Positions 37,402 through 47,635 of a stretch of 64,000 nt of DNA are shown here, piece by piece. The notes beneath the pieces were generated by a model, which worked only from the letters and a program-made list of their open reading frames with translations, did no database searches and had not been told where the DNA came from. The position numbers were made by a program, and so were the translations under genes. The stretch lies in contig NC_068567.1 of NCBI RefSeq assembly GCF_025698545.1, positions 4,278,001 through 4,342,000 of the forward strand. The letters are read 5' to 3'. The first letter of the stretch is position 1; each line of letters opens with the position of its first letter. Source of the DNA: Gossypium raimondii (Eukaryota > Streptophyta > Magnoliopsida > Malvales > Malvaceae).

Positions 37402-40148
37402 ATGGAGAAACCCGTTGTGCAACCATGGAGACCGGAGCTGATTCCGGTGCCGGTGCCGGCACCGTTTAGGCCACCGGAGACGCCGTTGGAACCAATGGAG
37501 TTCTTGTCACGTTCATGGAGTGTTTCAGCTTTGGAAGTTTCAAGGGCTTTAGCTCCTTCTCAGCCTCATCCTTCCTCATCGTCCCATCAAATGTGCTTGA
37601 AAGGTTCTTCTTCAAGTGGTAATGTCGTTATACTAGAAGACATAGCCGGTGAACTTGAAGAAAACGGGATAGTTTCAGGCAACCCTTTCTCTTTCGCTTC
37701 ATCTGAAACTTCCCAGATGGTCCTTGAAAGAATCATGTCACAATCGGTAAGTTTAGCAAAAAAAAAAAAAACAACAACCTATGTCAAGACAAAAGGAACA
37801 TCTTTTTATTTTTTTGGTTTTATTGTTTCCCTTGTAAAACAAAAATTCTATTGTTTCAAAGGTTTTCTCTTTTGTCTTTTAACAGCAAGAAGTATCTCCA
37901 AGAACATCCGGCAGGTTATCTCATAGCAGCGGGCCATTAACAGATAGCCCCCCTGTTTCACCTTCTGAGATTGATGATGTTAAGGTTTGTTTTTATGTTT
38001 GAACCCATGTCTATATTTTGCTGTTTTTTTTATCATAATATTCGAATTCGAAACAGCAACGAGCTCTTTGTTTTTTCAAAAATGGACACATTCAACAATA
38101 ATTTGGTAAATACGAAGTATAAAAAACCAAAAAAAAAAAGGGGAAAAAATTGTGAAAATTATTTGGTTTTTATCTTTAAAGGAATCGAAATTTTGTGGAT
38201 AAGTGTTTGTTTTTTTTTACCACAGTTTTAGGCATTTTCTGAGTCACTGACTCAGTAACATAAATATCAGGCTTTCTCAGAGACAGATGGAGAAGAAAGT
38301 GAGAATGGGTTCCTGTGTTTTTGCTTCACTTTATTCAATGTAAATAATTTTTTTTTAAAAAGATAAATGATGGTCATTTTAAACAACAAAAAGAAAAAAG
38401 CTGTTTCCTTTCATTATTTCAATGGAGGTTACACTTACAGCTTAGTACTGTGTTTTTTTTTTATTACCAATGTTGCCCTTGTCTGTTTTTTAGTTTCTGT
38501 GTGAAAATTTTGTTACGTTCTTTTGGTATGAGTCAGTACGCGGGGCGCGTTGGTCCCTATAACGATTTGTTTTACCTTTCATAAAATTGGAAGCTTTCTT
38601 TAATGGCGGTGGTTGTTTGTTATGATATCAAATTTCTTTTCTGTTTTTTTTAAAAAATTTTGAATGGCGGTGGATGATTTCAATTTTGCAGCAATTTTGC
38701 CGCGCTAGTAATTCCCTCAACATGCAGTACCGTACAAACACGGGGATAGGGGCGGCTACTCCTGCAACAACTGCCGTGACGGGTGGTGGGAAGACTGTGG
38801 GCCGATGGTTGAAGGATAGAAGAGAGAAGAAGAAGGAAGAAACGCGGGCTCAGAACGCTCAGCTACATGCAGCCATTTCTGTTGCCGGGGTAGCAGCAGC
38901 CGTGGCAGCTTACGCGGCAGCCACTGCTGCTTCCTCGAGCGCTGGGAAAGATGAGCAGAGGGCAAAGACGGACATGGCTGTGGCATCGGCTGCCACTCTT
39001 GTTGCTGCACAATGCGTGGAGACAGCTGAAGCCATGGGAGCCGAGCGTGATCATTTGACCTCCGTCATCAGCTCCGCCGTCAATGTCCGGTCTGCTGGAG
39101 ATATCATGACCTTAACTGCTGGTGCAGCAACAGGTATACATATACATACATACATATAATTTGAAATTGAAATGGTTGAATTAATGGTGGGAAATTGTTA
39201 TCAATGGCAGCATTAAGAGGGGCAGCCACATTGAAGGCAAGGGCATTGAAAGAGGTATGGAACATAGCAGCTGTAATCCCTGTTGAAAATAATAAAAATG
39301 GTGGCAATGGTAGCAATGGTAGCTCCAATGGCAGCTTTAGTGGTGAGCTTCTCCCTGAAGAGAATTTCTTGGGGATCTGCAGCAGAGAATTGCTTGCCAG
39401 AGGCTGTGAGCTTCTCAAGCGCACGAGAAAAGGTAAGCACAACACTCGCCCGAGTCCGGGCATCATCGAACAACGCATTTTGACATGATGTTTACCATTG
39501 TTGTGAATATTGCAGGTGATCTTCACTGGAAAGTTGTCTCTGTTTATATCAACAGAATGAACCAGGTACCCATACCAAATTGCTCAATTATTGTCGGGCG
39601 GGAAACGATTGTGTTCGAGTCTTCAGTTCGATTATGTTCAATTATTGGGGAATCAGTCTTATTTGCTTCTTTTGTTTAACATTCTTTTGAAACTTCTTTT
39701 TGTTACAAGGTTATGTTAAAGATGAAGAGTAGACATGTTGCTGGGACCATCACAAAAAAGAAAAAGAGTAAGTGATTATTAGCTTTGTCTTTCTCTAATA
39801 ATGTGAAAAATAAAATAAATTCAGAAATGGATGTGGTGCTTTCTTTGTTCCATTTGGGGATTTGAGAAAGCTAAAAGTAAAAAAGAAAAATCAAAAGGGA
39901 TTGTCTTTAACATTCTTCAATTTTTTTTTGCAGATGTTGTCTTGGAGGTGATTAAAGATATGCCAGCATGGCCTGGCCGCCACTTGCTCGAAGGCGGGGA
40001 AAACCGGAGATACTTCGGGTTAAAGACGGTTATGCGCGGGGTCGTAGAGTTCGAGTGCAAGAGCCAAAGAGAGTATGATATTTGGACTCAAGGTGTATCA
40101 AGGCTGCTATCCATTGCTGCTGAGAAGAACAATAGAAATAGGATTTGA
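37402..40148 (+). CDS. FL: FORKED-like / VAN3-binding protein (DUF828 + PH-like)
   Basis: Seven exons: 37402-37746, 37886-37984, 38692-39133, 39211-39432, 39516-39565, 39710-39767 and 39934-40148, giving 1431 nt and 476 aa. The N-terminus holds the family hallmark [21 protein letters not shown]. The central region has [44 protein letters not shown] (basic then Ala-rich), then [27 protein letters not shown]. The last about 110 residues form a PH-like domain ending [26 protein letters not shown]. In Arabidopsis, relatives (VAB/FKD1, FL proteins) bind the ARF-GAP VAN3 and phosphoinositides at the trans-Golgi/plasma membrane, helping PIN1 traffic and leaf vein closure; that role here is by homology. 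[12 protein letters not shown] low-complexity insert precedes [14 protein letters not shown]. There is no sign of damage. Confidence 0.93.
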
Positions 40149-45435: not shown

Positions 45436-47635
45436 ATGAAGATGTATGTTCGGTCCCTTTTTTCTCTTTAATTTGTCGCTTTAAGTTTGTTTCTTAGCGT
45501 TTTTCAGTCATTTTGTTGCAGAAAAGAAGCTAATGCCGGCGCACTTACCAATTTCGAAGTACTCGATTTTCTACGATCTCGAGGGGCATCGAAGGATCCG
45601 ACAAGAGTTATTGTTCCAATAGCACCATCTGAGTTCAAGGTTAAATTTTTGTAGCAAATTTTCTTTCCTATTTATACTTATTAGAAGAGTGAAAGCGGCA
45701 TCTCTTACTGAGTTTTTCTTATTATGTTCTAGGTTTATGATTATTTGGTAGAGAGTGCCGCTTGCAATCAAACGAAAGAACATGTCAAGGAGTTCTTGGA
45801 AAGGTGTAAAAGTTATAAACTTGCAAAAGCTGAGGTGCTCAACATCATCAATCTCAGACCATCTGCATTAGTTGAAATTGACCCGGTAAAGCTTTTCTTT
45901 TACATGTTTCTATTCTTGTGATATATTGCTCAAGGTATCATCCATGGTTCAATCATGTTTTTAAAGCTAAGCTGCATTAGTTGAAGTCAACCCGGAAAAA
46001 CTTTTCTTTAGTGATATATTGCTTGAGAACCATTCACTTATTCGTATCATCCATGGTCGAATCATGTTTTTAACACTAAGCTGCATTAGTTGAAATCAAC
46101 CCTGAAGAACTTTTCTTTTACATGTTTCTATTCTAGTGATATATTGCTTGAGCACCATTTTCTTATTTGTATCATCCATGGTTGAATCTTGTTTTTAACG
46201 CTAAGCTGCATTAGTTGAAATCAACCCGGAAAAACTATAATTTTACATGTTTCTATTCTAGTGTATATTGCTTGAGCACCATTATCTTATTCATATCATC
46301 CATGGTTGAGTCTTATTTTTCAACCTGAAAAAACTTTTCTTTTACATGTTTCTATTCTAGTGATATATTGCTTGACCACCATTATCTTATTCGTGTCATC
46401 CATGATCAAATCATGTTTTTTTATAGCTAAGCTGCGTTAGTTGAAATCTACCTGGAAAAACTTTTCTTTTTCATGTTTGTATTCTAGTGATATATTGCTT
46501 GAGAACCATTATCTTATTCGTATCATCCATGGTTGAGTCATGTTTTTAAAGCTAAGCTGCATTAATTGCAATCAACCCGAAAAAACTTTTCTTTTACATG
46601 ATTCTATTCTAGTGATATATTGCTTGAACAGCTTGAACACCATTTTCTTTATTCGTATCATCCATAATTGAATCATGTTTTTCTATAGCTAAGCTGCATC
46701 AGTTGAAATTGACCCAGAAAAACTTTTCTTTTACATGTTTCTATTCTAGTGATATATTGCTTGACCACATTATCTTATTCGTATCATTTATGGTCAAATC
46801 ATGTTTTTTATATAGCTAAGCTGCATTGTTTGAAATTGACCCAGAAAAACTTTTCTTTTTTACATGTTTCTAGTGATATATTGCCTGAGCACCATTCAAT
46901 TATTCATATCATCCATGGTAGGATAGTATTTTTAAAGCTAAGCTGCATTAGTTGAAATCAATCCAGTAAAGCTTATCTTTTACATGTTCCTATTCCTGTG
47001 ATATATTGCTCGAGCACTGGTATCTTATTCATGTCATCCATGGTTGAATAAGGTTTTTATAGCTTGGCTGCATTTACTAGGATGTATGATTTTTTTTGTC
47101 AACTCTTATGCCAACAGTATGACATCTCGTGGTACGAATTCAAGTCATTTCTTCATGCCAAATAGTATGTCAAACATTGGAGCATAATATAATTGATTTG
47201 CAGAAGGGGAATGAGTTTATTACATAGCTATATTTGATTTGTCAAAGAACCATCTTTTTGAACCCAAAACTTAGTCTGGTTGGTTCATGCAGTCATGGGT
47301 TAAGAGTTCGAATTCCAACATCTGCAACCCCTTCTTTGCCGTCTTTGGTAATTGGCAATTGCTTTACTTAATTTGGCCTTTTCTCTCTCCAGATAATAGA
47401 GGAATCTGAGAAACGATTCGGAGAACAACTAGAAGAGCTTGTTAATTTGGTGGTAGAGGTGTTGCCAGAGCCTCCTACACGAAAACTTCCCGAACCAGAA
47501 AGCAATGAGGTTAAAGAAGACACCATGGATGGAAAAAACATGGATGAGGATAAAACGGAAACTGTAACAGTTGAACAGATCGACAAGGATCAAACAGAGC
47601 CAAATGAAGATGGTGAACAAATTGTGGTTAGTTAA
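45436..47635 (+). CDS. RPC9: DNA-directed RNA polymerase III subunit RPC9 (CRCP/Rpb4-like)
   Basis: Exons 45436-45443 (only ATG AAG AT), 45522-45639, 45733-45885 and 47393-47635 give 173 aa. The product starts MKIKEANAGALTNFEVLDFLRSRGA and continues PSEFKVYDYLVESAACNQTKEHVKEFLERCKSYKLAKAEVLNIINLRPSALVEIDP. This is the HRDC-like Rpb4/RPC9 domain that, with RPC25, forms the stalk of Pol III for initiation on tRNA and 5S genes; the animal homologue is CGRP-receptor component protein. The C-terminal tail is acidic (KEDTMDGKNMDEDKTETVTVEQ...). The ATG at 45436 was chosen because MKI directly abuts the conserved EANAGALTNFEVLDFL through a good GTATGT donor. The third intron (1.5 kb) is inflated by a tandem array. 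The last few residues (IVVS) lie at GTGGTTAG, so a further splice there cannot be excluded. Confidence 0.92.
45863..47085 (+). repeat. Tandem array derived from the RPC9 exon 3/intron 3 junction
   Basis: About eleven diverged units of 108-136 bp in head-to-tail order. Each contains a piece matching the end of exon 3 (CTGCATTAGTTGAAAT...ACCC), then CTTTTCTTTTACATGTTTCTATTC, GTGATATATTGCTTGAGCACC, ATCCATGGTTGAATCATG and TTTTTAAAGCTAAG. Units start near 45863 (the real exon), 45972, 46081, 46205, about 46320 (truncated), 46432, 46556, 46692, 46821, 46942 and 47067. The true donor is CCCGGTAAAG; in most copies the GT has become GA (CCCGGAAAAA, CCCAGAAAAA), while the unit at about 46942 still reads CCAGTAAAGC. 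Confidence 0.85.
47255..47345 (+). repeat. Possible tRNA-related repeat in RPC9 intron 3
   Basis: ACTTAGTCTGGTTGGTTCATG resembles box A and GTTAAGAGTTCGAATTCCAAC resembles box B, about 30 bp apart. No tail or target duplication was identified. Confidence 0.35.

Follow-up and report, generated by a model that had tools for sequence, protein, structure and literature searches.

The window analysed here is a 64,000-nucleotide stretch of the Gossypium raimondii genome (contig NC_068567.1, positions 4,278,001 to 4,342,000), and all coordinates count from its first base. The gene of interest has four coding exons; joined, they give 173 codons and a stop, and every intron has GT..AG borders:

45436-45443, plus strand: RPC9 coding exon 1, 8 nt (ATGAAGAT), placed by the spliced open frame of 173 codons
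45522-45639, plus strand: RPC9 coding exon 2, placed by the spliced frame and a protein search
45733-45885, plus strand: RPC9 coding exon 3, whose last 23 bp (45863-45885) supply the exon-derived portion of the repeat unit described below
45886-47392, plus strand: RPC9 intron 3, GT..AG, phase 0, 1507 bp
47393-47635, plus strand: RPC9 coding exon 4 with stop, placed by the spliced frame and a protein search

The predicted protein matches the Pfam family RNA_pol_Rpb4 at 54.8 bits (cut-off 25.6), and its top PDB match, best among 4 distinct PDB sequences, is human RPC9 (7a6h_D, E 1.3e-15). The alignment with the human protein is continuous through the exon 3/exon 4 border of the plant gene. Judged by its predicted product, the host gene is that of the small RNA polymerase III subunit RPC9. 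A search of the 751-Mb genome (281 contigs) with this protein returned three places, all of them the gene's own exons 2-4, and no paralogue with which intron 3 could be compared, six further Rpb4-family matches lying under the cut-off. RPC9 appears, from this search, to be single-copy.

On a donor matrix built from approximate plant donor frequencies, the exon 1 donor of RPC9 is weaker than that of exon 3 (5.9 vs 8.0). Elsewhere in the window, at 37402-39159, two open reading frames match consecutive parts of Pfam Auxin_canalis (PF05703; four of the five listed frames were scanned). They are probably exons of one gene, presumably a VAN3-binding/FORKED-like one.

A tandem array in intron 3

Intron 3 is largely made of a tandem array. 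In the one assembly studied, the unit alignment resolves ten units (U0-U9) of 109-137 bp and a 7-bp stub:

45863-45971, plus strand: U0, 109 bp, the authentic exon 3/donor junction, with donor GTAAAG at 45886
45972-46080, plus strand: U1, 109 bp, GA replacing the donor GT
46081-46205, plus strand: U2, 125 bp, GA replacing the donor GT
46206-46321, plus strand: U3, 116 bp, GA replacing the donor GT
46322-46431, plus strand: U4, 110 bp, GA replacing the donor GT, most of the exon part lost
46432-46556, plus strand: U5, 125 bp, GA replacing the donor GT
46557-46693, plus strand: U6, 137 bp, GA replacing the donor GT, with an insertion
46694-46820, plus strand: U7, 127 bp, GA replacing the donor GT
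46821-46942, plus strand: U8, 122 bp, GA replacing the donor GT
46943-47067, plus strand: U9, 125 bp, terminal, GTAAAG retained at 46966, A at position -1
47068-47074, plus strand: CTGCATT stub, the second, right-hand occurrence of the 7-mer found at 45863

The array takes up 1182 of the 1507 bp of the intron (78%), which would measure 411 bp minus U1-U9. All of U1-U9 lies within intron 3 of the intact four-exon frame. The 23-bp exon-derived part opens eight of the nine units beyond U0, U4 retaining about 6 bp of it; the border between U3 and U4 is our choice, as a deletion sits there. Relative to the other units, U0, U1 and U8 have internal gaps and U6 an insertion.

A blastn search of the window with the exon 3/donor junction as query returned 11 HSPs apart from the self-match. 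Nine of these fall in the array, at E values from 6e-10 to 5e-24; of the two weaker ones (E 5.5e-4), one is also in the array (46655-46680) and the other lies outside it, at 37984-37964 on the minus strand. When up to 3 mismatches were allowed, the 23-mer from the exon end matched 6 times (the exon itself, U1, U2, U3, U7 and U8), compared with 0 matches in 100 shuffles. The corresponding part differs from the 23-mer by more than 3 mismatches in U5, U6 and U9 and is missing from U4.

These results confirm the original prediction that the array was copied from the gene's own exon/donor junction, with significant similarity to exon 3, and that the donor is changed in nearly all copies. Several of its details needed correction. 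It counted about eleven units of 108-136 bp where we find ten, gave every unit an exon end, which holds for all copies except U4, and placed the end of the array at 47085, 11 bp beyond its real end. It rightly saw GTAAAG kept in the last unit, with a splice position (about 46955) that lies about 10 bp from the actual one at 46966.

Searched against the 751-Mb genome, the whole array returned one place only, and a single unit returned 10 places, all inside the array; very common words were skipped in both searches. A generic satellite or dispersed repeat, which the original prediction had raised as a counter-explanation, is rejected on this search, if not absolutely excluded, as it found no place beyond the RPC9 array. 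A long-period array is in itself not rare in this genome: Tandem Repeats Finder, run on 20 sampled 10-kb stretches, reported 12 rows with a period of at least 60, some of them overlapping, and one of these has 5 or more copies. One unrelated sampled stretch (L037) carries a tandem array with a 66-bp period and about 5.8 copies at 805-1185, with overlapping or neighbouring rows to 1424.

Edges of the array

The similarity between units and exon begins at CTGCATT (45863), and the same CTGCATT at 47068-47074 ends the array, after which the sequence is unlike it. At least 7 bp are shared at 0.0018 of random junctions of the array's span in the window, a figure obtained with the array unmasked, which can only raise it. 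CTGCATT at both edges is the remnant that one tandem duplication between 7-bp direct repeats would be expected to leave. A partial eleventh unit of 7 bp only would leave an identical edge.

Because the gene is intact across intron 3, the exon is the source of the repeat and not a recruit from it. An array predating the exon was ruled out: the exon codes for a stretch that aligns with human RPC9 across the boundary, and exon sequence upstream of 45863 is absent from the units. In the blastn search the array HSPs start at query base 44 (equal to 45863) or later. The unit alignment, the blastn matches and the exon 23-mer matches together support the earlier proposal that the first duplication crossed the splice site and that the copies carried an exon fragment along.

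Loss of the donor in the interior units

The donor GT is lost in eight of the nine copies and retained in U9. In four columns of the unit alignment, U0 and U9 share one base and the eight interior units, U1-U8, all have another: donor position +2 (T vs A), donor position +6 (G vs A), a T vs A difference whose A makes TAG, and a C vs T difference. The same four columns were recovered under four further alignment settings. On the unit tree (built from 127 of 138 columns, or from 115 when the donor columns were dropped), the donor state changes once, whether or not the donor columns are used. If the six GT-killing changes are taken as equally likely, eight independent losses that are all T>A have a probability of about 4e-6. 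One mutated founder is thus supported over repeated loss, since the identical GT>GA and +6 G>A changes occur in all eight units together with two linked changes outside the donor.

The pairing of U0 with U9 has moderate branch support. It accounts for 4 of the 17 splits of two units against the rest (P 0.0005 for the named pair, 0.02 for any of 45 pairs), counted after omitting columns with more than one gap or with a commonest base shared by under 7 units; leaving out the two donor columns gives 2 of 15 (P 0.04). The branch is supported at 82/80 with the donor columns and at 55/36 without them, in which case the two units sit at an open fork of the tree. Six of the seven inner branches are open in each unit tree.

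Some columns conflict with the pairing, namely 16-17, where U0, U7 and U8 are alike, and 22, where U7-U9 are alike, and such conflict would imply either sequence exchange between units or parallel mutation. Columns 16-17 suggest exchange among units. In column 22 parallel change is to be expected, as the column belongs to a CpG. This CpG, at donor positions -2/-1 (45884-45885 and the homologous positions), is kept in four of the ten units (U0, U1, U3 and U6) and has become CA in U7-U9, TG in U4-U5 and CT in U2. Decay of methylated CpG is a source of such changes, and the six altered units look like cases of it. Mean identity is 0.85 for units at distance 1, 0.83-0.85 at distances 2-7 and 0.79 at distance 8, with no clear fall with distance between units.

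Splice-site candidates within the array

The donor retained in U9 reads CCA|GTAAAG and the authentic one CCG|GTAAAG. Among the 78 GT sites of intron 3, the authentic donor ranks 1st on the donor matrix (8.0) and the U9 donor 12th (3.8); 1.2% and 19%, respectively, of the 6006 GTs in the window score at least as well. Pairing energies with U1 snRNA, based on its 5' end and the donor consensus and with the duplex register unforced, are -5.5 kcal/mol for the authentic donor (3rd of 78) and -2.6 kcal/mol for the U9 donor (17th of 78).

The original prediction overlooked a second class of sites, the acceptor-like ones made by the founder. The founder's T>A change created an acceptor-like AG, which all of U1-U8 carry. 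Of the 32 YAG sites in intron 3, eight have at least 15 pyrimidines in the 20 bases before the AG. The real acceptor, with 17, is one of them; the other seven, with 15 to 17, lie in U2-U8 of the array. In U1 the AG is present (ending at 46011) and the pyrimidine tract is absent after a deletion. The array sites are:

46115-46136, plus strand: acceptor-like pyrimidine tract and CTAG in U2, shown as the example
ending at 46261, 46360, 46487, 46612, 46749 and 46873, plus strand: the other six acceptor-like sites

Exon 3 ends in phase 0, and when joined to six of the seven array sites it meets TGA as its next codon; joined to the seventh, in U3, it reads on for 15 codons. YTRAY, the consensus of branch-type motifs, occurs 15-60 bases upstream of three of the seven array sites, and is absent also before the real acceptor of intron 2.

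Discussion

We consider it probable that the array is a neutral intronic minisatellite that arose from a single tandem duplication spanning the donor junction of exon 3 and intron 3. The CTGCATT 7-mer in exon 3 and its counterpart in intron 3 would have bounded a segment of roughly 109-125 bp, and slippage or microhomology-mediated repair would have duplicated this segment, so that U0 was followed by a copy bringing another GTAAAG donor. The first donor would have stayed in use, leaving exon 3 unharmed and turning the copy into intron. One copy would then have gained GT>GA, +6 G>A, the T>A that makes TAG, and C>T. Unequal exchange or slippage would have multiplied this copy into the interior units, leaving U0 and U9 at the two ends outside the homogenisation. 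Drift of the units, including CpG decay at -2/-1, may have followed, with normal splicing presumably removing the whole array. The anatomy, copy number, edges and shared changes of the array are observed, as is the lack of any other place in the genome search; the order of events, the neutrality of the array and its removal by normal splicing are what we infer.

Selection might also have shaped the donor copies. A competing GT in each copy could have made its loss favourable, either separately in each unit or through the spreading of GT-less units, and the original prediction left the choice between a founder and such selection undecided. Eight of the nine copies do lack GT and the sole keeper has lost its -1 G, as selection against decoys would have it. 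However, the identical change and its linked non-donor companions in all eight units are explained by one founder, and the -1 change of U9 is CG>CA, shared with U7 and U8, as methylation decay predicts. Moreover, five other GTs of intron 3 that score above 6 on the donor matrix persist, compared with 3.8 for U9. Selection is unneeded here, since one change of donor state is enough and the exon-derived and intron-derived parts diverge about alike (mean difference over all unit pairs 0.19 and 0.15). The founder half of the earlier alternative therefore stands, and selection we regard as unlikely; its spreading form is compatible with a founder, so that our confidence in the one overlaps with that in the other. 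It is far less likely that U9 offers exon 3 an alternative donor at 46966, and the earlier suggestion to that effect is weakened. Positions +1 to +6 are the same as in the authentic donor, but the -1 G is gone, there is no +5 G (as also in the authentic donor), and both the matrix score and the pairing with U1 snRNA fall well short of the authentic values, with nearly a fifth of the GTs in the window scoring as well or better. Reading on from exon 3 through the real donor reaches a stop after 11 codons, so the product would be truncated.

It is tempting to speculate that the acceptor-like sites matter instead. The 3' splice-site-like motifs of the array (CTAG|TGA) could serve as a ladder of decoys, leading to unproductive RPC9 transcripts and so tuning the level of a Pol III subunit. 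Transcripts that run into an immediate stop are candidates for nonsense-mediated decay, and TGA is the next codon for most of the sites. The share of pyrimidine-rich YAG sites in intron 3, seven of the eight lying in the array, compares with 165 of 2612 in the whole window on both strands, intron 3 included. The array sites also match the acceptors of RPC9 introns 1 and 2 (15 pyrimidines in each), and a 92-nt cryptic exon is possible at 46874-46965, from the acceptor in U8 to the donor in U9. Nevertheless, the seven sites, as copies of one, do not count independently, pyrimidine number gauges acceptors only crudely, the branch-type motif accompanies fewer than half of them, and the real intron 3 acceptor is level with the best array site. 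Such a ladder seems to us improbable. We would give slightly less credence still to the extension of this idea, in which a founder that lost a decoy donor and gained a decoy acceptor was amplified into a copy-number-dependent brake on RPC9 through unproductive splicing.

The neutral minisatellite that we favour would be of some age. The mean corrected divergence of the intron part is 0.17 per site and plant substitution rates are a few 1e-9 per site per year, which together would date the array to somewhere between ten and a few tens of million years. At such an age, related genera may share it.

Among the literature matches listed there is no RPC9 case, in keeping with the original prediction, and no plant donor-junction array was recognised among them. 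The kind itself is known, and by analogy the human CBS 31-bp VNTR is its closest known case. That repeat, c.1444_1467+7(16_21), combines 24 nt of exon end with 7 nt of intron and occurs in 16 to 21 repeats that differ from one another by single nucleotides (PMC2630376); it lies where exon 13 meets intron 13 (PMC1395315). Like it (PMC2630376), the RPC9 unit joins an exon end, here of 23 nt, to the start of the intron, in register and in ten head-to-tail units. Unlike it, the RPC9 unit is about four times longer, sits in a plant Pol III subunit gene and has lost the donor GT in nearly all copies. CBS copy number varies among people, whereas that of RPC9 is known from one genome.

Other junction duplications share parts of this pattern. 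The intron 7/exon 8 duplication described in the same source (PMC2630376) also crosses a splice junction and sets up two competing sites, one strongly favoured, but it is a single duplication with no array. We read it as an acceptor junction, though the passage says 'donor', because an intron 7/exon 8 junction and the cited title point to a 3' splice site. In potato RdRp (PMC4974935), again a plant gene, a tandem duplication over a splice boundary carried splicing signals along; there are two copies, they lie on the acceptor side and they gave rise to a new intron, whereas the RPC9 intron was apparently just lengthened. In human segmental duplications, too, minisatellites lengthen both exons and introns, and internal tandem repeats at boundaries may form novel introns (PMC2812944); unlike the RPC9 array, their units are 30 bp on average, repeated 4 times, in primate-specific paralogues. 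The tandem-duplication model has been laid out in a review (PMC3443670).

In a broader context, the RPC9 array may be viewed as a plant counterpart of the CBS VNTR. Conversion of U0 by an interior unit with GA would be an ever-present route to inactivation of the real donor. The array would be a readable record of a tolerated splice-site duplication, in which the first donor is used and the copies fall into the intron, and of the amplification of one mutated copy while the end units retain the old state.
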